Source: Stomatobaculum longum (GTDB taxonomy: Bacteria; Bacillota; Clostridia; Lachnospirales; Lachnospiraceae). Taken from it: 64,000 nucleotides of DNA. This document shows, piece by piece, positions 11,179 to 61,274 of this stretch; position 1 is the first letter of the stretch; each line of letters begins with the position of its first letter. Position numbers and translations under genes: made by a program. The stretch lies in the NCBI GenBank assembly GCA_000242235.1, contig JH590864.1:216610-280609 (forward strand), written 5' to 3'. Under the pieces are notes generated by a model that had not been told where the DNA came from, ran no database searches, and saw nothing but the letters and a program-made list of their open reading frames with translations.

Positions 11179-11215
11179 TGATTTCAGGATAATAGAGTAA
11201 ACATGGGGATATTAG

Positions 11216-11244
11216 TTGACTCTATCAAAACTTGGTGCTACAAT
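11216..11244 (+). promoter_or_regulatory. Sigma-A promoter of the TetR gene
   Basis: TTGACT (11216-11221), a 17-bp spacer and TACAAT (11239-11244). Near-consensus. It rules out translation starts upstream of about 11250 for the following gene. Confidence 0.8.
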
Positions 11245-11247
11245 AAA

Positions 11248-11265
11248 ACCGACAAAGTTGTCGGT
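11248..11265 (+). promoter_or_regulatory. Palindromic TetR operator overlapping the transcription start
   Basis: ACCGACAA-AG-TTGTCGGT is a perfect inverted repeat 3 bp after the -10 box, covering the expected +1. This is the usual position and form of an autoregulatory TetR operator. The following T-run makes it look like a terminator, but a terminator at +1 makes no sense for this promoter. Confidence 0.7.
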
Positions 11266-11292
11266 TTTTTTACTACGAGGAGAAATCTATTT

Positions 11293-11898: not shown

Positions 11899-11946
11899 TT
11901 TTTTCGACTGCTAGTTAGTCAAAACTAAAACATGAGGATAAATTAT

Positions 11947-50772: not shown

Positions 50773-51714
50773 ATGGGTGCAATTACAGCGGCAATGGTAA
50801 AAGAGCTCAGAGAGCTCACCGGCGCAGGCATGATGGACAGCAAGAAGGCTCTCGCGGCAGTTGAGGGCGACATGGAAAAGGCAATCGAGTTCCTCCGTGA
50901 GAAGGGACTCGCAGGCGCGCAGAAGAAGGCGAGCCGCATCGCAGCCGAGGGTATGGTTGCTGTGCTTGTCAGCGAGGACGGCAAGAAGGGCGTTGCGGTC
51001 GAAGTGAACGCAGAGACCGACTTCGTCGCGAAGAACGAGAAGTTCAGAACCTATGTCGGCGAGGTTGCGCAGCAGGCGTTGAACACCGATGCGACGGACC
51101 TCGAGGGCTTCCTCGCAGAGCCGTGGACGGCAGATCCGTCTCTCACGGTCAAGGAAGAGCTCTCCTCGATGATTTCCGTGATCGGTGAGAAGCTTGACAT
51201 CCGTCGCTTCCGTCAGCTTAAGGAGGAGAACGGTTTCGTCGAGTCCTATGTCCACGCGGGCGGAAAGATCGGCGTTCTCCTTGCGGTCGAGACCGATGTC
51301 GTGAACGATGCGGTTAAAGAGATGGCGAAGAATGTCGCAATGCAGGTCGCAGCACTGAAGCCGCTCTACACGAGCGATGCCGAGGTCGATGCGGACTACC
51401 TCGAGAAGGAGAGAGAGATTCTCGCGGCACAGATTAAGAATGACCCGAAGATGGCAAACAAGCCGGAGAAGGTCATTGAGGGCGCAGTGCAGGGCCGTCT
51501 CCAGAAGGAGCTGAAAGAAATCTGCCTTCTGGACCAGGTCTATGTCAAGGCTGAGGACGGCAAGCAGAATGTCGCTTCCTACGTAGCTTCGGTCGCAAAG
51601 GCCAACCAGGCGCACATCACAATCAAGACCTTTGTCCGTTATGAGACCGGCGAGGGCCTTGAGCATAAGAGCGAGAACTTTGCGGAAGAAGTCGCAAAGC
51701 AGATGCAGGGCTAA
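50773..51714 (+). CDS. tsf: Translation elongation factor Ts
   Basis: 313 residues. ITAAMVKELRELTGAGMMD with KKALAAVEGDMEKAIEFLR is the N-terminal UBA-like module that contacts EF-Tu; AVEVNAETDFVAKN is the core signature. It releases GDP from EF-Tu. I start at ATG 50773 (AGGAGAG upstream); the longer open frame begins inside rpsB. A strong terminator follows, ending the rpsB-tsf operon. Confidence 0.98.
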   Translation: MGAITAAMVKELRELTGAGMMDSKKALAAVEGDMEKAIEFLREKGLAGAQKKASRIAAEGMVAVLVSEDGKKGVAVEVNAETDFVAKNEKFRTYVGEVAQQALNTDATDLEGFLAEPWTADPSLTVKEELSSMISVIGEKLDIRRFRQLKEENGFVESYVHAGGKIGVLLAVETDVVNDAVKEMAKNVAMQVAALKPLYTSDAEVDADYLEKEREILAAQIKNDPKMANKPEKVIEGAVQGRLQKELKEICLLDQVYVKAEDGKQNVASYVASVAKANQAHITIKTFVRYETGEGLEHKSENFAEEVAKQMQG

Positions 51715-51737
51715 AAAGCACCTGCGAGACCATACGA

Positions 51738-51778
51738 AAAAGAGCGAATCGGCGCGGTTGCGCCGGTTCGCTCTTTTT
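51738..51778 (+). terminator. Intrinsic terminator after tsf
   Basis: AAGAGCGAA...TTCGCTCTT outer stem with inner GGCGC/GCGCC pairing, then T-run. Confidence 0.92.
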
Positions 51779-51826
51779 ATATGCTGCCGCAGAGCAGAAA
51801 AAACAGTGAGATTATAGAAAACAAAC

Positions 51827-51855
51827 TTGACAATTATAGGCAACTATCATAGTAT
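51827..51855 (+). promoter_or_regulatory. Promoter and palindromic operator of the iron-uptake operon
   Basis: TTGACA (51827-51832), 17 bp, TAGTAT (51850-51855): strong sigma-A promoter. Its spacer holds ATAG-GCAA-CTAT (51836-51847), a palindrome placed to block polymerase. Its form recalls DtxR/IdeR-type iron boxes, but the regulator is not identified. Confidence 0.7.
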
Positions 51856-51880
51856 TAAGAAAAGCAATGCGCAAAGCATC

Positions 51881-51911
51881 ATACAAATTCCAAGGAATTT
51901 GTATTTTTTTT
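51881..51911 (+). terminator. Terminator/attenuator between the iron-operon promoter and its first gene
   Basis: ATACAAATTC (51881-51890) pairs with GAATTTGTAT (51895-51904) across a CAAG loop, followed by a run of eight T (51904-51911). It lies about 20-50 nt after the predicted transcription start and 44 bp before the first start codon. An upstream hairpin ATGC-GCAAA-GCAT (about 51867-51879) could belong to the same leader. Confidence 0.8.
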
Positions 51912-51955
51912 GCCGCGCGTGTTAGCTAAATTTAACCTTTGTGAGGACGGTGATT

Positions 51956-52369
51956 ATGCGGCTTCAGCGAATCTTCGGCATCCTGTTTCTGGTTCTCGGA
52001 CTTTTGTTATTTCTGACACCGGGCACGCTTGCGCCGGTCTGTCCGATGAAGCCTGACGGCGGTTTTATGAAGTGCCACTGGATGGATGTCGCGGAACAGA
52101 GCGTCGCGGCGGTCGTTATCTTCGGCGGCCTGTTGGCGGCTCTTTGGCCCGCGGCTTTCAGCGGCGGCATCGCCGCCATGAATCTGGCGCTAGGCGCAGA
52201 GAGCTTCGCACTCGCAAAAAGCCTGATCGGTGGCTGCAGGGTGCATGAAATGGCCTGCAATCTCTACACGCGCCCGCTGATTTACGTGCTGTCGGGACTT
52301 TTGATGGCGGTCAGTGCCGTAGCGCTCTGCTGCAGGCTTACGGGGGAGGCAAAACATGGAAGAGCTTAG
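51956..52369 (+). CDS. DUF4418-type small membrane protein
   Basis: 137 residues, four hydrophobic segments. Conserved-looking cysteines CPMKPDGGFMKCHWM and GCRVHEMACN lie outside the helices, as in DUF4418 proteins that accompany ABC permeases in anaerobes. Function unknown; paired Cys, His and Met residues suggest metal binding (inference). ATG 51956 is used, with GAGGACGG upstream. It overlaps the following ATPase gene by 14 bp. First gene of the iron-uptake operon. Confidence 0.75.
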   Translation: MRLQRIFGILFLVLGLLLFLTPGTLAPVCPMKPDGGFMKCHWMDVAEQSVAAVVIFGGLLAALWPAAFSGGIAAMNLALGAESFALAKSLIGGCRVHEMACNLYTRPLIYVLSGLLMAVSAVALCCRLTGEAKHGRA

Positions 52370-53057
52370 GGCGGAAGGCCTCTGCAAGCGCTTTCTTCGC
52401 GGCAAACGCGAGGTCAAAGTGTTACAGGATGCGTCCCTTTGTCTCGGGCGCGGCGAACTGGTTTTTCTGACCGGCGAGTCGGGGAGCGGCAAGACGACAC
52501 TCTTGAAAATTCTCGCGGGGCTTTTAAAACCCGATGGCGGCAGAGTTCTGGTGAACGGCAGAGACAGCACTGCGTTTACGGAGGATGAGTGCTGCGATCT
52601 GCGACAGCGCGTGGTTTCGTATTTGCCGCAGCAACTCGGACTGCTCGAAGCCCTGACAGCGGTGCAGAACGTTGCGCTCCCCGCCATGTTTTCGGGAGAT
52701 AAGGCGCAGTGCAAAGAGCTCTACAGCCGCGCTACGGCCTTACTTGACCGGACCGGGGCGCTTGCGCTCCGGGATGCCTGTCCCGCGGAATTGTCCGGCG
52801 GAGAGACGAAGCGCGTGTTGCTCGCGAGAGCGCTCATGACAGCACCGCGGTTTTTACTCGCGGATGAGCCGACCGCGGATCTGGACCGGGAGAGTGCGGC
52901 CGACTTTTTGCGGCTCTTTGCGGCTCTCCGGGCGCAGGGCACAGGCGTACTGGTTGTGACGCATGATTGGTCGCAGCTTCGGGCGGCCGACCGCGTTCTG
53001 CAACTTCGGGCGGGCACGGTGCGGGATGTGACACAGGAAATCGGAAATTCCGGGTGA
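52356..53057 (+). CDS. ABC transporter ATP-binding protein (MacB/LolD type), first copy
   Basis: 233 residues: Walker A TGESGSGKTT, signature LSGGETKRVLLARAL, Walker B FLLADEPTADLD and H-loop VVTHDWS. This subfamily powers FtsX/MacB-like permeases rather than classical importers. Such permeases are encoded further down the operon, together with a second ATPase of the same type (58894). Whether the two ATPases serve different permeases is unknown. Translation is probably coupled to the DUF4418 gene by overlap. Confidence 0.88.
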   Translation: MEELRAEGLCKRFLRGKREVKVLQDASLCLGRGELVFLTGESGSGKTTLLKILAGLLKPDGGRVLVNGRDSTAFTEDECCDLRQRVVSYLPQQLGLLEALTAVQNVALPAMFSGDKAQCKELYSRATALLDRTGALALRDACPAELSGGETKRVLLARALMTAPRFLLADEPTADLDRESAADFLRLFAALRAQGTGVLVVTHDWSQLRAADRVLQLRAGTVRDVTQEIGNSG

Positions 53058-53075
53058 ACAACAGAAAGGGGAAAA

Positions 53076-54398
53076 ATGAGTCAGAGAAGCAGACACAGCT
53101 TTCGCCGCATTGCGGCAGCGTGCGCGGCACTTTTGATGGCGCTGCTGCTCGCCCTGCCGGTCTATGCGGAGCAAAAGTATGCGAACTGGCAGGAGGTCGC
53201 ATCGACCATGGGTACGGTTCTGGACGGCGCGGTCGAAGCCTACGGCGCGGGCGGCGAAGAGGCCGGCAAGAAAGCGACCGAGCAGGTCAACGTGGCCTAC
53301 TATAAATTCTACGAGAAACTCGGCTTTGAAAAGACGGTCATGGCTTCCATCTCCGGAAGTCGCGGCTCCGATGTGGAGCACCAGTTCTATCTCGTCAAAA
53401 AGATCATCCGCGACGGCGGCTCGAAAGAGGAGTTAAAGAGCAGTGTCGAGACCTTAAAGGGCATGCTCACCGAGGATGCGATTACCCTGGACGGCGGCAA
53501 AGCCGCGGCGCAGGGAAGCGGGAGCACCGCTGCGACAAACAGTGCCGACGGGTCGAGTAGCGGCGGGGCGGCCTGGCAGACCTTCCTTGCGGTGCTCGGC
53601 CTTACGCTTCGAGAGGGCCTTGAGGCCATTCTGGTCATTGCCGCGATTATCGCCTATCTTGTCAAGACAAACTGCCGGAAGTATCTGGCTTCGGTCTACA
53701 TCGGCGCGGGACTCGGTGTGCTGTTCAGCGTTATGCTCGCGATGATCTTCAACGGGATTGCGGCAAGCCTCGGCGATGCGCAGTCCGGTGCGGGGCAGGA
53801 GATTTTTGAAGGTGTCACGATGTTCCTCGCGGTCATTGTCCTCTTCTATGTGAGCAACTGGATGCTCTCGAAGGCAGAGGCGGAGACCTGGAGCAAATAT
53901 ATTAAGGACAAGGTACAGCAGAGCATCGATAAGGGCAGCATGTACACGCTTTCCTTCTCGGCCTTCCTCGCGGTAGCGCGAGAGGGTGCGGAGCTCATTA
54001 TGTTCTTCCAGGGCATGCGCGCGAACATCACCAATAACCCGCAGATGCTCTGGGGCGGTCTTGCACTCGCCGTTCTGATTCTCGCGATTGTTTATGTCGC
54101 AATCACGAAACTGTCCGTCAGACTGCCCTTAAAGCCCTTCTTCACCTTCACGAGCGTGCTCATGTTTATCCTCTGCATCTCGTTCATCGGCAAGGGCGTT
54201 TACGAACTGCAGGAGGCGGATGTCATCGGAAGAACCATCATCCCGTGGATGAACGGCTTTAATTTCGAGCTTCTCGGTATTTACGACCGCTACGAGAATC
54301 TCATTCCTCAGCTTATTCTGCTGGCGCTGACAATCTTCACCTACCGTCGCCAGCTGGGTAAAAACAAAACACAGAAACAGGGAGGTAAAAAGTCATGA
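53076..54398 (+). CDS. FTR1-family iron permease with extracytoplasmic N-domain
   Basis: 440 residues. The signal peptide (to VYA, about residue 31) is followed by an extracytoplasmic helical domain (about 32-165) and a seven-helix FTR1 membrane domain. The iron-binding glutamate motifs are LREGLEAIL (R179-E183) and AREGAELIMF (R302-E306). These proteins take up Fe2+/Fe3+ with an oxidase or binding-protein partner. This one overlaps by 4 bp (ATGA) the gene for the P19-like partner, as in FetMP systems of Gram-negative bacteria. RBS AAAGGGGAA. Confidence 0.93.
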   Translation: MSQRSRHSFRRIAAACAALLMALLLALPVYAEQKYANWQEVASTMGTVLDGAVEAYGAGGEEAGKKATEQVNVAYYKFYEKLGFEKTVMASISGSRGSDVEHQFYLVKKIIRDGGSKEELKSSVETLKGMLTEDAITLDGGKAAAQGSGSTAATNSADGSSSGGAAWQTFLAVLGLTLREGLEAILVIAAIIAYLVKTNCRKYLASVYIGAGLGVLFSVMLAMIFNGIAASLGDAQSGAGQEIFEGVTMFLAVIVLFYVSNWMLSKAEAETWSKYIKDKVQQSIDKGSMYTLSFSAFLAVAREGAELIMFFQGMRANITNNPQMLWGGLALAVLILAIVYVAITKLSVRLPLKPFFTFTSVLMFILCISFIGKGVYELQEADVIGRTIIPWMNGFNFELLGIYDRYENLIPQLILLALTIFTYRRQLGKNKTQKQGGKKS

Positions 54399-55078
54399 TG
54401 AAGAGAAGTTTGGCAGTATCGATGCTCATTGCCGCGGTTGCGCTGAGCGCTTGCGGCGGCAGCAAGAGCGCGGAGACCAAGGCTTCGGGCAGCGCTACGG
54501 AGAGCAGTGCGGAGACCAAGGCCGGTGAGACCAAGGCGGCTGCGGGCGAGACCAAGGCAGAGGAGACCAAGGCCGAGGCAAAGGCGCCGGGTGAGAATGC
54601 CGGATTTGAGGAGTTCCCAATCGGTGACGATCAGGAGGTCGGCCCGCTGATTATCTCGGGCGTTTATTTCCAGCCGGTCGACATGGAGCCGGCGGGCAAT
54701 TCGCTCTCGAAGGCAGATTCCGATTGCCACATCGAGGCGGATATCACGGCGAGCCAGGAGGGCACGACCCTCGGCTACGGCAAGGGTGACTTTGTTCCGT
54801 GGCTGCAGGTCAAGGCCATCATCCAGAAGAAGGGTTCCGACAAGGAGCCGACCGAGGTCGCTTTCATGCCGATGAACGCTTCCGACGGCCCGCACTACGG
54901 CGCAAACTTCAAGTTCCCGGAAGGTGTCGGCGTCTATGATGTCAAGTTCGTTGTGAGCGCTCCGGGCAATGACTATCTGCTCCACGTCGACAAGGAGACG
55001 GGTGTCACGGGTCGCTTCTGGACCGAGCCGCTGGTTGCGGAGTGGCCGGACTTTGAGTGGAACGGACCGCAGTGGTAA
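54395..55078 (+). CDS. P19/Tp34-type iron-binding lipoprotein
   Basis: 227 residues. Lipobox LSAC gives lipidated Cys20; a linker with repeated ETKA units (about 24-68) precedes the Tp34/P19 beta-sandwich domain. Candidate metal ligands are the histidines in DSDCHIEADI and SDGPHYGANF and the methionines in VAFMPMNAS, matching the Cu/Fe site of Campylobacter P19. It would receive ferrous or ferric iron and hand it to the FTR1 permease encoded just upstream. A GNRA-capped 13-bp hairpin (55099-55128) follows, which may stabilise the upstream mRNA and raise lipoprotein yield. Confidence 0.9.
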   Translation: MMKRSLAVSMLIAAVALSACGGSKSAETKASGSATESSAETKAGETKAAAGETKAEETKAEAKAPGENAGFEEFPIGDDQEVGPLIISGVYFQPVDMEPAGNSLSKADSDCHIEADITASQEGTTLGYGKGDFVPWLQVKAIIQKKGSDKEPTEVAFMPMNASDGPHYGANFKFPEGVGVYDVKFVVSAPGNDYLLHVDKETGVTGRFWTEPLVAEWPDFEWNGPQW

Positions 55079-55098
55079 AAAGAACGCTTTGACTTCAG

Positions 55099-55128
55099 TA
55101 CGGGCGGAGGGGCAACCCTTCGCCTGTA
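55099..55128 (+). other. Intercistronic hairpin between the P19-like and DUF2318 genes
   Basis: Thirteen paired bases (55099-55111 with 55116-55128, two G-U pairs) with a GCAA tetraloop and no T-run. Not a terminator in form; more likely an mRNA-processing or stability element. Confidence 0.7.
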
Positions 55129-55164
55129 TTGCCATGTATAGCACTCGAGAGGGAAGGTGATTCT

Positions 55165-56421
55165 ATCTTAAAGTTGTTTGTCAAAATCATGGAGGGCGGA
55201 ATTGCGTTTTCGGTCACCATGGGTCTTTTGTTTTCCTTACTGCGCTATGAGGAGAGAGCCAAGCGCGTTCGCATCATAGGCTTTTCCGTCATCGGCGGCG
55301 TTCTCGCCGCGGCGCTCTCGGCGTATCTGCGCTCGATACCGAATTTTTTAAACCGAACCGCCTTAAACTTCTATAGCATGCTGCCCGTTGTCGGGAGCAT
55401 GTTGCTGCTGCTCTTGCTCATTCTGTTTGGCTCCTATCTTCGAAAAAAACAGCGGAAGGCATATGAAATCCTGCTGAGCCTCGCTGTGGTCCTATACAGT
55501 CTCGCCTCGTTTTTCTCGTACCTCCCGCTAATTATGACCAATGTGAGCAGCTTTGTGAGCTACGGAGAGAGTGCGGTCAGCACGGCGGTTTTGTTCCGTG
55601 TCATCGGCTACAGTCTCGCGATTCTCGTCATGTTGCTCTCGGGGATTGCGGCGTTCCGCTGCGGTTTCTGCCTCGGAGAGCGGGAATTCGATTTGCTGCT
55701 TCCGCCGGTACTTTTGCTCCGCGGTGTCTCGCAGGCCGCACTCATTTTGCAGCGTCTCTATTCGCTGCGCATCATTCCGCGCAATCCGAAGTTTTTTGAG
55801 GCACTCAGCTTTGTCATCAATCACAGCCTCATCTTCGACGCGCTCCTCTTTGCTCTGCTGCTGGTGATACCGCTTACGCTCATACTTCGGCACCTGAGAG
55901 TAACGGAGAGTTATCGAAATCGGGCGGAACTCAGAAAGTTGAAGGCGGGACACCGCCGCGTGCGCCACTGGGCCGCATTTTTTGCCCTGCTTCTTGCGCT
56001 TGATCTCTCGAGCATCACGGCGCTCAAGTCCTATGCGGGGCGAGAAATTCCACTCTCTGCACCGGAGGACTATGCAATTGAGGACGGGCGCATTGTCGTG
56101 CCGCTCGAGAGTCTGCAGGACGAACACCTGCACCGCTATGAGTACACGGCGAAGGACGGCATCAAGATGCGCTTTATTCTGATCAAGAAATCACAGAGCG
56201 CCTACGGTGTGGGCCTCGACGCCTGCGAAATTTGCGGGCCGACCGGCTACTTCGAGCGGAAAAACGAGGTGGTCTGCAAACTCTGCGATGTCGTGATGAA
56301 CAAGGGCACCATAGGCTTTTCCGGCGGATGCAATCCCATTCCCTTCCCCTATCTGGTGCACGACCAAAAGATATACATAGAGACGGCCGATCTTGACAAG
56401 CTGTCCTATGTATTCAAGTAA
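55165..56421 (+). CDS. DUF2318 (Fe-S-like, cysteine-rich) membrane protein of the iron system
   Basis: About 419 residues. Some eight membrane helices (to about 290) precede a C-terminal DUF2318 domain with DACEICGPTGYF, VCKLCDVVMNKG and GGCNPIPFP, where the cysteines probably bind a metal or Fe-S centre. In Campylobacter the homologue (Cj1660) lies between P19 and the FtsX-type permeases, the same order as here. Start: AAGGTGA (55154-55160) is placed for a codon at ATC 55165; nearby options are TTG 55174 and ATG 55189, both poorly spaced. An upstream TTG (55129) sits beside the hairpin without an RBS. Confidence 0.85.
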   Translation: MLKLFVKIMEGGIAFSVTMGLLFSLLRYEERAKRVRIIGFSVIGGVLAAALSAYLRSIPNFLNRTALNFYSMLPVVGSMLLLLLLILFGSYLRKKQRKAYEILLSLAVVLYSLASFFSYLPLIMTNVSSFVSYGESAVSTAVLFRVIGYSLAILVMLLSGIAAFRCGFCLGEREFDLLLPPVLLLRGVSQAALILQRLYSLRIIPRNPKFFEALSFVINHSLIFDALLFALLLVIPLTLILRHLRVTESYRNRAELRKLKAGHRRVRHWAAFFALLLALDLSSITALKSYAGREIPLSAPEDYAIEDGRIVVPLESLQDEHLHRYEYTAKDGIKMRFILIKKSQSAYGVGLDACEICGPTGYFERKNEVVCKLCDVVMNKGTIGFSGGCNPIPFPYLVHDQKIYIETADLDKLSYVFK

Positions 56422-56431
56422 AGGGGGCGCT

Positions 56432-57715
56432 ATGTTTTTACGCATGGTATTGGGAGCCGTATTCCGGCAAAAGAGCAAGATGTTCATGATTGCGTTTACC
56501 GTTGCGCTCGGCGTGAGCCTTTCGACCGCGATGCTGAACACCATGCTCGGCGTCGGCGATAAGGTGAACCAGGAATTAAAAACCTACGGCGCAAACATCA
56601 ATGTCGTGCCGAAGGATGCTTCTCTGCTCGGCGATCTCTACGGCATCGGCGACGAAGCGGGTGCTGAGCGAAGCTATCTCGACGAGTCGAAACTCGGAAA
56701 CATCAAGACCATATTCTGGGCCTTTAACATTGTCGATTACACCCCTTACTTCAACACCACGGTGCAGGTGAACGGCAATGCGGAGCAAACAAGGCTGGTC
56801 GGAACCTGGGTCAAACATCACATGGATTTGCCGACGGGCGAATCCGTGGACACCGGCATGCAGCATTTAAAGAGCTGGTGGGAGATGAACGGCGAGTGGC
56901 TTGACGAAGCGGATTCGGACGGTGTAATGGTCGGATCGATCTACGCGCTCCGAAACAATTTATCCGTCGGCGACAAATTGGAGTTAAAGAGCAATGCGCT
57001 GACAAAGACCATGGTGGTCAGAGGCATTTTCAGCTCCGGAAGCGATGAGGATCAGTACATTTACTGCGTGCTCCCGGTTGCCCAGGCGTTTGCGGGCAAG
57101 GAAAATGTGGTGAGCAGCATCGAAGTCTCGGCGCTCACAACCCCGGACAATGAACTCGCCAGAAAGGCGGCGCAGAATCCGCTGAGCCTTACGGTCAAAG
57201 AGTGGGAAGTCTGGTACTGCACGGCCTATGTGAGTTCCATCTGCTATCAGATTCAGGAAGTCATTCCGGATTCGGTCGCAAAGCCCATACGTCAGGTTGC
57301 GGAGTCCGAGGGCGATATCTTGAATAAGACGACGCTCCTCATGGTACTGATTACGGTGCTCAGCCTGCTCGGTTCGGCGCTCGGCATTTCAAACCTGGTG
57401 ACGGCTGCCGTCATGGAGCGGCGCACCGAGATAGGCCTTGAAAAGGCAGTCGGTGCGAGCAACGGGCGCATCATCGGCACCATACTCACGGAAATTATGC
57501 TGACCGGCGTGATCGGCGGCGTGGCAGGTTATTTCGTGGGCCTCATGCTGACCCAGCTGATCGGCTTCGGCGTGTTCGGCTCTGCCATTCCGCCGGCGGC
57601 TATGGTAATTCCGATTGTCGCCCTGTTGATCTTCTTTGTGACCCTGCTCGGCAGCATACCGGCCATTCGCTACCTGCTGCATCTGAATCCGACGGAGGTT
57701 CTGCATGGAAAATAA
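56432..57715 (+). CDS. FtsX/MacB-type ABC permease, iron system, copy 1
   Basis: About 427 residues: an N-terminal helix, a large extracytoplasmic MacB-PCD-like domain (about 40-270) and three C-terminal helices, with the FtsX motif AVMERRTEIGLEKAVGAS. Homologous to the permease pair of Campylobacter iron-uptake clusters (Cj1661/Cj1662). ATG 56432 with AAAGGGGG upstream. It overlaps the next permease gene by 11 bp. The paired permeases and the ATPase at 58894 probably form one complex. Confidence 0.87.
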   Translation: MFLRMVLGAVFRQKSKMFMIAFTVALGVSLSTAMLNTMLGVGDKVNQELKTYGANINVVPKDASLLGDLYGIGDEAGAERSYLDESKLGNIKTIFWAFNIVDYTPYFNTTVQVNGNAEQTRLVGTWVKHHMDLPTGESVDTGMQHLKSWWEMNGEWLDEADSDGVMVGSIYALRNNLSVGDKLELKSNALTKTMVVRGIFSSGSDEDQYIYCVLPVAQAFAGKENVVSSIEVSALTTPDNELARKAAQNPLSLTVKEWEVWYCTAYVSSICYQIQEVIPDSVAKPIRQVAESEGDILNKTTLLMVLITVLSLLGSALGISNLVTAAVMERRTEIGLEKAVGASNGRIIGTILTEIMLTGVIGGVAGYFVGLMLTQLIGFGVFGSAIPPAAMVIPIVALLIFFVTLLGSIPAIRYLLHLNPTEVLHGK

Positions 57716-58874
57716 AGAGAAACAGCCGCGGGAGCGGAAGATGAGCCGCCGACGCATGTACTTTCACATGGTGATGGCCTCGCTTGCAAGACGGCGCTCC
57801 CACATGGTTACCGCACTCCTCGCGATTGCGATGGGGGCCACGGTGCTCTCGGGCCTCGTGACCATCTACTATGACATTCCGCGCCAGATGGGCAAGGAGT
57901 TTCGTTCCTACGGCGCGAATCTACTGATTATGCCGACAGAGTCGGGCGGCTCTCTCACTGAGGCGCAGGTCAAAGAAGTACGAGACACCATACCGGCGGA
58001 CAAGCTGGTCGGCATGGCGCCCTACCTCTATCAAAATGCCAAGGTGCGCGAACAGCCCTACCTGCTCGCGGGCACGGATCTTGCGGGCGCAAAGCAAAAC
58101 AGTCCCTACTGGTTGATTCACGGAAACTGGCCGGAAAAGTCGAGGGAAGTTCTGCTCGGCCATGAAATCGCAAAGACCTTGAAACTCGATATCGGCGACA
58201 AGTTCACGGTGAACACCTCAAAGGGGGACGGTCAAGAGACCGCGACCGATTTCTTCGTTTCCGGAACCGTGACAACCGGCGGGAAGGAGGAAGAGCTCAT
58301 TTTTATGAGCATGGAAGATTTGACCGGTATCGTCGGCAATCAGGGACCGGATGTCATTGAATGCAGTGTCGAGATGGAGCAGGCGGAATTGAATCAGCTG
58401 GTGCAAAAAATCGCGGCTGCGGATTCCGGCCTGCTTCCCCAGGCGGTAAAGCGTGTCACGGCCTCCCAGGACACGGTCCTCAAAAAACTGCAGGCTCTGG
58501 TCTGGATCGTCACGGTCATTGTGCTCTGCATTATGATGATTTGCGTGTCGACCACAATGATGGCGGTCGTGACCGAGCGCAGGAAGGAAATCGGCTTAAA
58601 GAAGGCGCTCGGCGCATCGAATGAGAGTGTGGTCAAGGACTTTCTCGGCGAGGGTGCCATGCTCGGTGTGCTCGGCGGTGCGCTCGGCGCAGGCCTCGGC
58701 TATCTGTTTGCGCTTCGCGTGAGCCTGAGCGTCTTTTCGCGCACGGTACACTTCCTCTTTGCGCTGGTGCCGATTACCATCTTGGTTTCGGCGCTGATTG
58801 CGGTGGTTGCCTGCCTGATTCCGGTCAGAAAGACCGTGGAAATCGATCCGGCGCTTGTGTTGCGCGGTGAATAA
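57705..58874 (+). CDS. FtsX/MacB-type ABC permease, iron system, copy 2
   Basis: 389 residues, same architecture as the preceding permease: basic N-terminus, helix (about 32-55), extracytoplasmic domain, three C-terminal helices and the motif VTERRKEIGLKKALGAS. Both permeases share the early phrase KEFRSYGAN/ELKTYGAN followed by a hydrophobic strand, so they are paralogues that probably form a heterodimer. Translation overlaps the upstream gene. The ATPase gene follows 19 bp downstream. Confidence 0.87.
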   Translation: MENKEKQPRERKMSRRRMYFHMVMASLARRRSHMVTALLAIAMGATVLSGLVTIYYDIPRQMGKEFRSYGANLLIMPTESGGSLTEAQVKEVRDTIPADKLVGMAPYLYQNAKVREQPYLLAGTDLAGAKQNSPYWLIHGNWPEKSREVLLGHEIAKTLKLDIGDKFTVNTSKGDGQETATDFFVSGTVTTGGKEEELIFMSMEDLTGIVGNQGPDVIECSVEMEQAELNQLVQKIAAADSGLLPQAVKRVTASQDTVLKKLQALVWIVTVIVLCIMMICVSTTMMAVVTERRKEIGLKKALGASNESVVKDFLGEGAMLGVLGGALGAGLGYLFALRVSLSVFSRTVHFLFALVPITILVSALIAVVACLIPVRKTVEIDPALVLRGE

Positions 58875-58893
58875 GTGAGTGGGAGAAGAGAAG

Positions 58894-59580
58894 ATGGATA
58901 TTTTAAGCTTACGAGATGTCTCCAAAATCTACGGGGAGTTAAAGGCCCTCGATCAAATCAATCTGACGGTTGAAAAAGGCGAGTGGATTGCCATCATGGG
59001 CCCTTCCGGCAGCGGTAAGACGACCATGATGAACATCATAGGCTGCATGGATAAGCCTTCGCTCGGCGAGGTGATTCTCGACGGAACCGACATCACCAAG
59101 CGCAGCCAGAAGGAACTGACCGAGGTGCGGCGCGATAAGATAGGCCTTGTGTTTCAGCAGTTTCACCTGGTGAACTACCTGACAGCGCTTGAAAATGTTA
59201 TGATGGCACAGTATTACCACTCGATGCCGGATGAAGAGGAGGCCATGGAAGCACTCCGGGAAGTGGGGCTTGCGGACCGCGCAAAGCACCTGCCGAACCA
59301 GCTCTCGGGCGGTGAGCAGCAGCGTGTCTGCATTGCCCGCGCTCTGATTAATCATCCGGCGTTACTCCTCGCCGATGAGCCGACCGGTAATCTCGATGAA
59401 AAGAACGAATATCTCGTCATGGATATTTTCGAGAAGCTTCACAATGCGGGAAGCTCCATCATCGTTGTGACACATGACCCGGAGGTCGGAGACGAGGCCG
59501 AGCGCATGATCGTGCTGGAGCACGGACGCATTGCCCGCGAGGAGAAGAAAAAGCGGCAGAGACCGGTCATCGCGGAATAA
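58894..59580 (+). CDS. ABC transporter ATP-binding protein (MacB/LolD type), second copy
   Basis: About 228 residues: Walker [11 protein letters not shown]-loop VFQQFHLV, signature LSGGEQQRV, Walker [13 protein letters not shown] and H-loop VVTHDPE. Closest in style to LolD/MacB ATPases. Its position directly after two FtsX-type permeases makes it their motor. ATG 58894 is preferred over GTG 58879, since GGGAGAAGAG lies between. Compared with the first ATPase of the operon it has a more canonical signature. Confidence 0.9.
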
Positions 59581-59595
59581 AGGAGGAAAGCAACG

Positions 59596-60057
59596 ATGAA
59601 GAAAAGAATCGCACTGCTTGCGGCACTTATGCTGCTAAGCCTTGCGGCCTGCGGCAAGAAGGAGAGCGCGGAGAGCAAGACCGCAGAGAGCAAGACCACG
59701 GAGAGCAAGACCGCGCAGGGCTATAAGGACGGAACCTACAGCGGAGAGGCCGAGGTTAAGGAAGTCGGCGGAACCATTAAACTCGACATCACGGTTTCGG
59801 GCGGCAAAATCGCGACTGTGGATATGCAGAATCTGGACCGCGAGGGCAAGGAAAAGGGTGAGGACTACGGAAAGAGCGAGCCTCTGAATCGGGGACTCTA
59901 CAGCATCGCGCAGAATTCGATTCTGGGGACCGATAAGCTCCCGGGCCTTCTTGTAGACAGCCAGGATCCGGACAGCATAGATGCCGTGAGCGGCGCGACG
60001 CTCTCCCGCGAAGCCTTTGTGCAGGCTGCCAAGGCTGCGCTGGACGGCGCAAAGTAA
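59596..60057 (+). CDS. FMN-binding-domain lipoprotein
   Basis: 153 residues. Lipobox LAAC (lipid Cys19), a linker with repeated ESKT units (about 23-40), then an FMN-binding domain closing with DAVSGATLSREAF. Thr135 of the SGAT motif is the residue that carries covalently bound FMN in NqrC/RnfG-type domains. An extracytoplasmic flavin one-electron carrier fits an iron reductase step (ferric to ferrous) for this uptake system. Campylobacter clusters have thioredoxin-like proteins at this place instead. Good AAGGAGGAA ribosome binding site. Confidence 0.88.
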   Translation: MKKRIALLAALMLLSLAACGKKESAESKTAESKTTESKTAQGYKDGTYSGEAEVKEVGGTIKLDITVSGGKIATVDMQNLDREGKEKGEDYGKSEPLNRGLYSIAQNSILGTDKLPGLLVDSQDPDSIDAVSGATLSREAFVQAAKAALDGAK

Positions 60058-60065
60058 GGAGTCTC

Positions 60066-61274
60066 ATGCGAATGCAGGATGAAAAGTGGCTTGATGCGCG
60101 CGGACTGGCGCTGCAGAACATACGCGTTCGGGGTGGACGTTCCTTTGGGATCGCCGCGCTCTCCGCGCTGCTCGCACTCATGCTCTTTTTAAGCAGCTTT
60201 TGGATGCTGAGCTTAAAGAACGGGCTGCGCTCGCTCTCCGGGCGCATGGGGGCGGATTTGATTTTGGTGCCGGAGGGCTATGACAGCAAAATCAGCGGTG
60301 CGATACTCCGCGGAGAGCCGAACAGTTTCTTCTTTCACACGGATGTGCTGGAAAAGATACGGGAAAATCCGGCAGTGGAAGAGGCTGCGCCGCAGCTCTA
60401 TCTGGCTTCCCTTACGGCCGGCTGCTGTTCCTATCCCTTGCAGATTATAGGTCTCGATTTCGACTCGGATTTTTCCGTGGTTCCCTGGCTCAAGGCAAGC
60501 GCCAAGCTTCCCCTTGCGGCCGATGAGGTCTTGGTCGGCGCGAGCGTGGAGGGGGATTACCGGCATGAGATTCGCCTCTTCGGAAAGACCTATCGAATTA
60601 AGGGCAAACTCGCCAAAACGGGCATGGGTTTTGACACCTCGGTGTTCATGGGGATGCCGGAGGTGCGAAGTCTGGCGCGGGAATACGAGAAATTGCTGAA
60701 CAGCCCGATCGGCGCCGATGACAGCTTGATTTCCTCGGTCATGGTAAAGGTAAAGCCGGGCACCGACGTCGATGCGCTGAGAAAGAGCCTGCAGGAGAGC
60801 TGGAGCGGACAGGGCGTCTATGTGCTCGCCGCGCAAAATATGATGCGCGAGGTCGCGGGCAATGTGGACCGCATGCTGCTCTATGTCTATCTTTTGATCG
60901 GACTCATCTGGCTGCTCGGCTGTCTCTTGCTAAGGCTTCTCTACGGCATCCTGCTCCGCGAGCGCTGCGCGGAGTATCGGGCGCTCTATGTCCTCGGCGC
61001 AAGAAAACGGGATATCCGTCGCCTGGTCGTCTGGGAGAGCTTGCTTCTCGGCGCTTCGGGGGCAAGTGTCGGCTGCCTGTTTGCGCTCGCCGTCGGCATG
61101 CTGTTTTCGCCGGCTTTGCAGAATGCGTTGGGGCTCCCCTATCTCACACCCGCAGGCATTCACACAGCACTGCTTTTCCTCGCCGTGCTTCTCATCGCGG
61201 GACTGCTCGCGCCCTGCAGCGCCGTACTTTCTCTTCGCAAGCAGGAGAGAGCGGAATATGAAAGCCGTCTGTAA
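60066..61274 (+). CDS. FtsX-type ABC permease, iron system, copy 3
   Basis: 402 residues with the FtsX/MacB layout: N-terminal helix (about 28-50), extracytoplasmic domain starting with GRMGADLILVPEGYDSKISG, then three C-terminal helices. The usual ERRxEIGLxKAxGAS motif is reduced to LRERCAEYRALYVLGARKRD, so it is divergent from the other two permeases. It may partner with the first ATPase of the operon (52356), which otherwise has no obvious permease. Start ATG 60066 or ATG 60072; AAGGAG lies upstream of both. Last gene of the operon. Confidence 0.83.
   Translation: MRMQDEKWLDARGLALQNIRVRGGRSFGIAALSALLALMLFLSSFWMLSLKNGLRSLSGRMGADLILVPEGYDSKISGAILRGEPNSFFFHTDVLEKIRENPAVEEAAPQLYLASLTAGCCSYPLQIIGLDFDSDFSVVPWLKASAKLPLAADEVLVGASVEGDYRHEIRLFGKTYRIKGKLAKTGMGFDTSVFMGMPEVRSLAREYEKLLNSPIGADDSLISSVMVKVKPGTDVDALRKSLQESWSGQGVYVLAAQNMMREVAGNVDRMLLYVYLLIGLIWLLGCLLLRLLYGILLRERCAEYRALYVLGARKRDIRRLVVWESLLLGASGASVGCLFALAVGMLFSPALQNALGLPYLTPAGIHTALLFLAVLLIAGLLAPCSAVLSLRKQERAEYESRL

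Follow-up and report, generated by a model that had tools for sequence, protein, structure and literature searches.

A predicted terminator set at a fixed distance before a putative DtxR-type operator in the leader of a clostridial FTR1/P19 iron-uptake operon

Upstream of a ten-gene FTR1/P19 iron-uptake operon of Stomatobaculum longum, a predicted intrinsic terminator is followed, 9 nt past its T-run, by a putative operator. The parts of this leader, their spacing and their conservation can be read from the genomes of relatives, and T-runs lying 8-11 nt before the same kind of operator, outside promoters and upstream of iron genes, recur well beyond the genus. We consider the chances about even that the terminator is gated by an iron-sensing repressor of the DtxR family, for which a binding site is predicted shortly past the terminator. 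Positions given below are those of the window, i.e., the whole stretch of 64,000 nucleotides that was analyzed (G000:C4:216610-280609), taken from the 2.3-Mb genome of S. longum (G000).

Results

A promoter and a terminator hairpin ahead of the FTR1/P19 operon

The operon opens with a gene encoding a DUF4418 membrane protein (51956..52369, plus strand, start codon ATG at 51956). Genes two to ten (52356..61274, plus strand) encode an ABC ATPase, FTR1, P19 (Iron_transport, PF10634), an FtrD-like protein, two FtsX proteins, another ABC ATPase, an FMN_bind protein and a further FtsX protein. The ten-gene iron-uptake operon that the first-pass annotation had placed after the terminator is therefore found at 51956-61274, with FTR1 and P19 among its genes. 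Its FTR1, P19, FtrD-like, FtsX/ABC and FMN_bind genes are those of known bacterial FTR1/P19 operons, from which it differs by the DUF4418 gene and the extra ABC ATPase gene at its start, a feature of all four carriers in the genus and of genome G265. A comparison of the window at 54395-59580 with locus L038 showed that the proteins from P19 to the second ABC ATPase are 96-100% identical between S. longum and its relative G005, against 65-72% for DUF4418, the first ABC ATPase and DedA, which looks like a recent exchange of the operon core.

Only one promoter-like site was called within 51400-52400, where shuffled sequences gave an expectation of 0.5 +/- 0.8. This predicted sigma-A promoter, TTGACA-N17-TAGTAT (51827..51855, plus strand), matches the consensus at 10 of 12 positions, and its spacer holds the palindrome noted at first pass, ATTAT-AGGCAA-CTATC at 51833..51848 (no strand assigned), hereafter named O1. 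Downstream, the hairpin ATACAAATTC-CAAG-GAATTTGTAT, with a 10-bp stem and a CAAG loop (51881..51904, plus strand, -9.1 kcal/mol), leads into a run of eight T (51904..51911, plus strand), which would form the U-tract. A stable hairpin running directly into a U-tract is predicted to act as an intrinsic terminator, and the complete terminator claimed earlier for this place was borne out by folding: the RNA of 51860-51911 reached -13.1, compared with a mean of -5.2 for shuffled sequences (z -4.1), a value that none of 200 shuffles equalled. The stem is AT-rich and of modest stability; its counterpart in G005 has -6.5 kcal/mol. It is absent from the list of a stock terminator scan because that scan requires three G-C pairs and the stem has two; our promoter-terminator-gene finder for the S. 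longum genome had the same requirement and likewise missed it. Over the window and a further 400 kb, with 399 called genes in all, that finder returned five cases, and with so few we do not claim leader terminators as a speciality of the iron regulon in this genome.

From the end of the predicted -10 box it is 25 nt to the stem and 56 nt to the last T of the run, which would give a terminated RNA of about 50 nt (51862..51911, plus strand, with the start taken 7 nt after the -10 box), in line with the 50-60 nt proposed before. The hairpin is not the end of the preceding tsf gene, since tsf has its own terminator, an inverted repeat with T5 read from the sequence at about 51737-51779. The idea that the hairpin is itself a repeated operator was also dropped: with up to three mismatches, its palindrome occurs at one place in the S. 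longum genome and at two in G005, one of them perfect, at the ftr locus. As a separate observation, pairing is possible between the leader's 5' end and the sequence just past the terminator (51862-51936) in both S. longum and G005, giving a long rod in the read-through RNA that might protect its 5' end.

Two putative operators and their predicted regulator

A 16-bp inverted repeat, RTTAG-N6-CTAAY, is common to sequences upstream of two sets of operons, FTR1/P19 across the family and feo within the genus; copies were identified by eye, many of them near a predicted start, and some loci had no clear copy. Exact copies number 45 in the seven genomes of the genus, versus 18 for the reversed pattern. 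When one mismatch was allowed, the motif was not over-represented in the S. longum genome (81/94 hits versus 221/235 for the reversed control). A position weight matrix (PWM) was built from 13 hand-picked sites, the ftr leaders of S. longum, G005, G003 and G006 being left out. With this matrix, O1 is a weak operator, with two mismatches to the motif (PWM 10.5, p 2.5e-5 per position). A stronger copy, GTTAG-CTAAAT-TTAAC at 51921..51936 (O2, no strand assigned, PWM 17.3), lies 9 nt past the T-run and 19 nt before the ATG; counted from the last base of the -10 box, it begins 65 nt downstream. It is the top-scoring position of the 64-kb window, none as high was found in a 400-kb sample of the S. 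longum genome, and the first-pass annotation did not mention it although it lies within the interval annotated (51827..51955). Two operators are thus predicted for the ftr leader: O1 lies within the promoter, and O2 follows the terminator. O2 would be an operator in a transcribed region downstream of a promoter, as a roadblock requires, and the same position is predicted for operators at feoA/feoB borders.

The motif was found at feo, ftr and dtxR sites, i.e., at putative iron-uptake promoters and at dtxR genes, the distribution of a DtxR operator; in G003, copies stand just upstream of a dtxR gene, feo and ftr. At locus L228, the gene behind the T-run/operator element encodes the two DtxR domains (PF01325 and PF02742). 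On these two grounds, the position of the motif at dtxR genes and the L228 gene, we infer a regulator of the DtxR family, which would be metal-dependent. The S. longum genome carries two DtxR-family genes (G000:C2:162408 and C2:332650) and also two FUR-family genes. The Fur box is a GATAAT-type inverted repeat. What had been called an iron box is a real palindrome in the promoter spacer, but it looks like a weak copy of a DtxR-type site rather than a Fur box, as judged by comparison with the RTTAG-N6-CTAAY motif.

At one other place in the window, between tetR and two ABC exporter genes, T6 is followed at 7-11 nt by an operator when the pattern is relaxed to a degenerate form (11899..11929, plus strand: T6, 9 nt, GTTAG-TCAAAA-CTAAA). 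No hairpin was seen there. The tetR/ABC operon also has a putative promoter-overlapping operator of its own (ATTAG-TTGACT-CTATC, 11211..11226, no strand assigned). A candidate leader terminator of this operon at 11246-11267 was rejected, as the perfect palindrome AAACCGACAAAGTTGTCGGTTT overlaps the predicted tetR start and runs into a T-run; it is probably a TetR operator.

Other leaders of the genus were recorded alongside. The S. longum gene dtxR1 (L114, G000:C2:162408, minus strand) and its G005 counterpart (L118) have a promoter TTGACG-17-TATTTT and a weak operator; ahead of the ribosome-binding site stands a strong hairpin of terminator type with T6. This arrangement was not seen in G003 and G006. 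At about position 1501 of L151 (G000:C1:5274), a gene whose N-terminus resembles, by eye, the DUF2325 proteins found behind family elements is preceded by a promoter, an operator after the -10 box, the GC-rich hairpin GAGCCCGCAGCAATGCGGGCTC with a weak T tail. Locus L147 (G000:C3:463548) contains a CRISPR-like array whose repeats, partly masked, include GTTTTCCCCGCACACGCGGGGGTGATCC.

Conservation of the leader within the genus

FTR1 and the operon are present in four of the seven genomes of the genus. Among the three other than S. longum, two have a hairpin, a run of seven or eight T and O2 at 9 nt, and the third does not. Genome G005 keeps the promoter, O1 at the same offset (ATTAG-ATGACA-CTATC, PWM 14.8), the hairpin (TACAAATTC-CTTT-...), T8, the 9 nt and O2, all behind a different upstream gene. 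Compared with S. longum, its sequence is 72% identical over the promoter, 81% between the -10 box and the last T of the run, 57% between the T-run and the ATG, and 70% over the first gene. In G003, the leader comprises a promoter, an operator after the -10 box, a hairpin of unrelated sequence and T7, with a weak O2 (p 1.3e-4) 9 nt further on. In G006, a promoter and an operator after the -10 box are followed by a hairpin with TTTT only, and no O2 was found in the leader of this operon. The spacer following TTGACA before the first gene measures 17 nt in G005 and 16 nt in G003 and G006. The arrangement goes beyond chance, because it is kept in G005 behind another upstream gene and in G003 with another hairpin. 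Of taxonomic note, Fusobacterium naviforme ATCC 25832, placed in Fusobacteriaceae by the NCBI taxonomy, seemingly belongs to the genus of S. longum, and its name is probably misplaced.

T-run/operator spacing across the family and the class

We searched 397 genomes of the family, a set to which G003 does not belong, for the exact pattern T6-N{7,11}-RTTAGN6CTAAY, with the reversed pattern as control. The pattern was found in 252 of these genomes, and the control in 46. Neither S. longum nor G005 has a match, their O2 copies being one letter off each. When gaps of 0-30 nt were allowed, the matches listed comprised 107 distinct sites in 42 family genomes; 38 of the 107 had a gap of exactly 8 nt, and 62 of the 107 listed had one of 7-11 nt, where a uniform distribution would give about 17. 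The peak in T-run/operator spacing recurs in other families of the class. In a search of 391 genomes of the class, in which the matches listed came from other families, GTTAG..CTAAC stood at 8-11 nt in 29 of 48 matches listed (16 of them at 8 nt; 6 expected). With looser end letters, the figure was 15 of 78 matches listed, with 10 expected; we take these looser sites to be mostly chance occurrences in AT-rich genomes, and they serve as an internal control.

Ninety family elements were studied in their loci. The longer reading frame lies downstream in the T-to-operator direction in 75 of them; in 10 it is found on the opposite side and strand, and five are ties. A hairpin of -6 kcal/mol or better ends at the T-run in 29/90 elements, compared with 11/91 T-runs taken from intergenic DNA at these loci (Fisher p 9e-4); a narrower hairpin finder gave 20/90 versus 13/374 unselected T-runs. 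The remaining 61 elements have no hairpin of that stability, so the T-run must matter without one. Of 12 T6 runs between genes in the S. longum genome sample, five have a hairpin of -6 kcal/mol or better; hairpins are thus common there, and the enrichment holds for the family set only. The end letters of the two operator half-sites pair independently (A..C seen 5 times, 5.2 expected), which points to a site acting as DNA and led us to reject the operator as an RNA stem. An alignment of the family elements revealed neither a promoter element at a fixed place before the T-run nor a conserved -10 box after it.

Position relative to promoters and downstream genes

A site was scored as overlapping a promoter when a promoter of at least 10/12 match had its -10 box between 25 nt before and 22 nt into the operator. 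By this rule, promoter overlap is found for 2 of the 90 T-run elements and for 48 of 95 further exact operators that these loci contain, a non-random comparison set since many of its members are the promoter operators of those loci. The -10 box is inside or after the operator in none of the 90 elements, versus 25 of these 95 operators. T6 at 7-11 nt occurs at 0 of the 48 promoter-overlapping operators, 25 of which could have a T-run (in the other 23, the -10 box tends to occupy its place), and at 4 of the 47 operators without promoter. Within 110 nt upstream of the T-run, a promoter of at least 10/12 was present in 14/90 elements and in 6/89 controls.

Iron genes are prominent behind the elements. 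The border between feoA and feoB alone holds 31 of the 90, and in 22 of these 31 a promoter-overlapping operator (degenerate form) is located 272-758 nt upstream, versus 1/31 on the opposite strand, which reproduces the O1/O2 plan of the ftr operon. Among the 54 elements without feoB, eight have such an operator within the locus analyzed. Pfam domains were counted for 79 downstream proteins, among the first 25 of 42 families: FeoB_N was found in 30, the ABC exporter membrane domain in eight, DUF3793 and FeoA in four each, FecCD and DUF2325 in three each and BPD_transp_1 in two. Urease gamma, NifH and heme-binding Shp were single cases; a DtxR gene (L228) also follows an element. Among the 14 elements with a promoter nearby upstream, a full succession of promoter, strong hairpin, T-run, 8-10 nt, operator and gene was seen before ureA (L181), a Trep_Strep membrane protein gene (L226) and FecCD genes (L238 and L239). 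A leader of the same plan at L162 precedes a gene that we take to resemble xylA, so some sites may belong to other regulators.

Two further observations concern RNA elements at these loci. The leader hairpins of L230, L238 and L239 (FecCD leaders by Pfam) have a GTAAGnCCAG-like segment in common, possibly an unrecorded RNA motif; Rfam gave no match up to E 1 for these three loci. In Rfam searches of the same loci plus L226 and L181, the sole match was the 5' ureB sRNA (RF02514, 124.8 bits) at L181:342-635, inside the urease locus and away from the leader.

Alternative explanations for the leader

Promoter, short leader, intrinsic terminator and operon are also the parts of riboswitch, T-box and trp/pyr attenuator leaders, and attenuation had been proposed for this operon. 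The difference here is that no alternative fold or Rfam family was found, and that control would go through DNA. Only about 19 nt separate the predicted start from the stem, and in none of the four leaders of the genus does an upstream segment pair with the 5' arm of the stem better than in shuffles (duplex energies of +0.6 kcal/mol in S. longum, +1.0 in G005, -4.1 in G003 and -4.5 in G006), so that the antiterminator pairing sought in relatives did not materialize. The 5' segment does pair beyond the terminator, with folds to the ATG of -24.1 in S. longum and -24.4 in G005, but this outer pairing becomes possible only once the terminator has been passed, and a small frame with an ATG at 51867 has no ATG in G005. 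We find control by an alternative fold or an RNA-binding antiterminator very improbable. Scarcely better placed, and also improbable, is a separate small RNA of about 50 nt that responds to iron, with the operon served by read-through. The unit from promoter to terminator is compact, and its 81% identity with G005 from the -10 box to the T-run exceeds the 70% of the first gene; the sequence is, however, common to these two genomes only, G003 has the same plan with another sequence and a longer leader, and around the hairpin Rfam gave no family at cut-off (seven weak matches, all far below gathering scores). A short iron-responsive RNA as imagined at first pass could be made, but it is the weaker idea, given that in G003 the 5' part is not kept while the hairpin, the T-run and the O2 spacing are. 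What stands of the proposed dual control is the combination of regulated initiation with premature termination, its best reading; attenuation by refolding is not supported. Control of the ftr operon is likely exerted at both steps through a DNA-bound repressor rather than through RNA refolding.

Among readings at the DNA level, a terminator of constant efficiency, with iron acting only at initiation through O1 and O2 as an auxiliary repressor site, would need nothing that is not there, as O1 sits in the promoter and the hairpin could terminate by itself. It leaves unexplained both the fixed distance from T-run to operator (9 nt here, 8-11 nt elsewhere) and the avoidance of promoters (2/90 versus 48/95), and we judge it unlikely. 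The sharp spacing, together with the 61 of 90 elements lacking a hairpin of -6 kcal/mol or better, would suit a T-run that forms part of a longer stretch of DNA bound by the repressor or by a partner protein, the hairpin being incidental. Against this, T6 is found at none of the 48 promoter-overlapping operators although 25 could have it; moreover, the T-run is asymmetric, being on the promoter side in 75/90, and hairpins are enriched, which makes this explanation somewhat more doubtful still. Finally, TTGCCG at the end of the T-run could be the -35 box of a second promoter past the terminator, with a weak -10 box in O2 and repression at O2. By eye, TTGCCG or TTGAGA does stand 17 nt before a TAA-type hexamer in S. 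longum, G005 and G003. The -10 candidates match at only 3/6 positions, no promoter-like site was called past the terminator and no -10 box is conserved after the T-run in the family alignment; we give this possibility hardly any credence.

Discussion

The reading that we favor is a terminator gated by a DtxR-family repressor bound at O2. In the presence of iron, the repressor on O1 would block the promoter, and polymerases that still start would meet a second repressor on O2, which begins 9 bp past the T-run. A polymerase stopped there would be held with a weak rU-dA hybrid and a hairpin behind it, and would drop off at about 50 nt. Without iron, both operators would be free, the U-tract would be crossed without a long pause and a good share of polymerases would read into the FTR1/P19 operon. 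At elements that lack a hairpin, the weak rU-dA hybrid would by itself release the polymerase, the hairpin helping where present. A T-run on the promoter side, 8-11 nt before an operator located off promoters, with hairpins over-represented, fits a polymerase stopped while it synthesizes the U-tract. The front edge of RNA polymerase lies about 15-18 bp ahead of the RNA 3' end. A tight block at O2 would thus stop the enzyme at or just before the T-run, so that some invasion of the operator is needed and the geometry agrees within several base pairs only.

Operators of DtxR, IdeR and MntR are palindromic TTAG/CTAA-type sites at iron-uptake promoters and dtxR genes. The sites described here resemble them, with the difference that a second predicted site lies in the transcribed region, locked to a T-run. 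Roadblocking by DNA-bound repressors is established (PMC10310618, PMC4132739), and PurR, GalR, ArsR, CcpA, CodY and LexA are known to act in this way (PMC10310618). As with these proteins, elongation would be halted by a repressor bound at its specific site past the promoter; the difference is that the site here follows a T-run, and sometimes a full terminator, at a fixed distance. As to how stalled polymerases are released, the account of mechanisms in that review names Mfd and possibly Rho, and no intrinsic terminator (PMC10310618). In the open-licence PMC literature, screened by titles and abstract openings, no paper listed concerned a repressor-gated intrinsic terminator or the attenuation of an FTR1/P19 operon, which is weak evidence of novelty, and plasmid records gave no DNA match.

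Beyond this operon, we suspect, with slightly less than even confidence, that Clostridia possess a general iron switch at the DNA level. In it, a U-tract with or without a hairpin would precede, by 8-11 bp, the operator of a metalloregulator within a transcribed region, and the metal-loaded repressor would serve as a site-specific, conditional termination factor, at the feoA/feoB junction as well as in the ftr, FecCD and ureA leaders. What would be new, if this is true, is a release signal built in at a fixed distance from an operator. Roadblocking repressors and intrinsic terminators are usually treated separately, and a fixed spacing over hundreds of genomes would unite them, showing how a stalled polymerase could be freed without Mfd or Rho. 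For the common anaerobes that carry these elements, it would mean a second layer of control on iron uptake by the FTR1/P19 and Feo systems.
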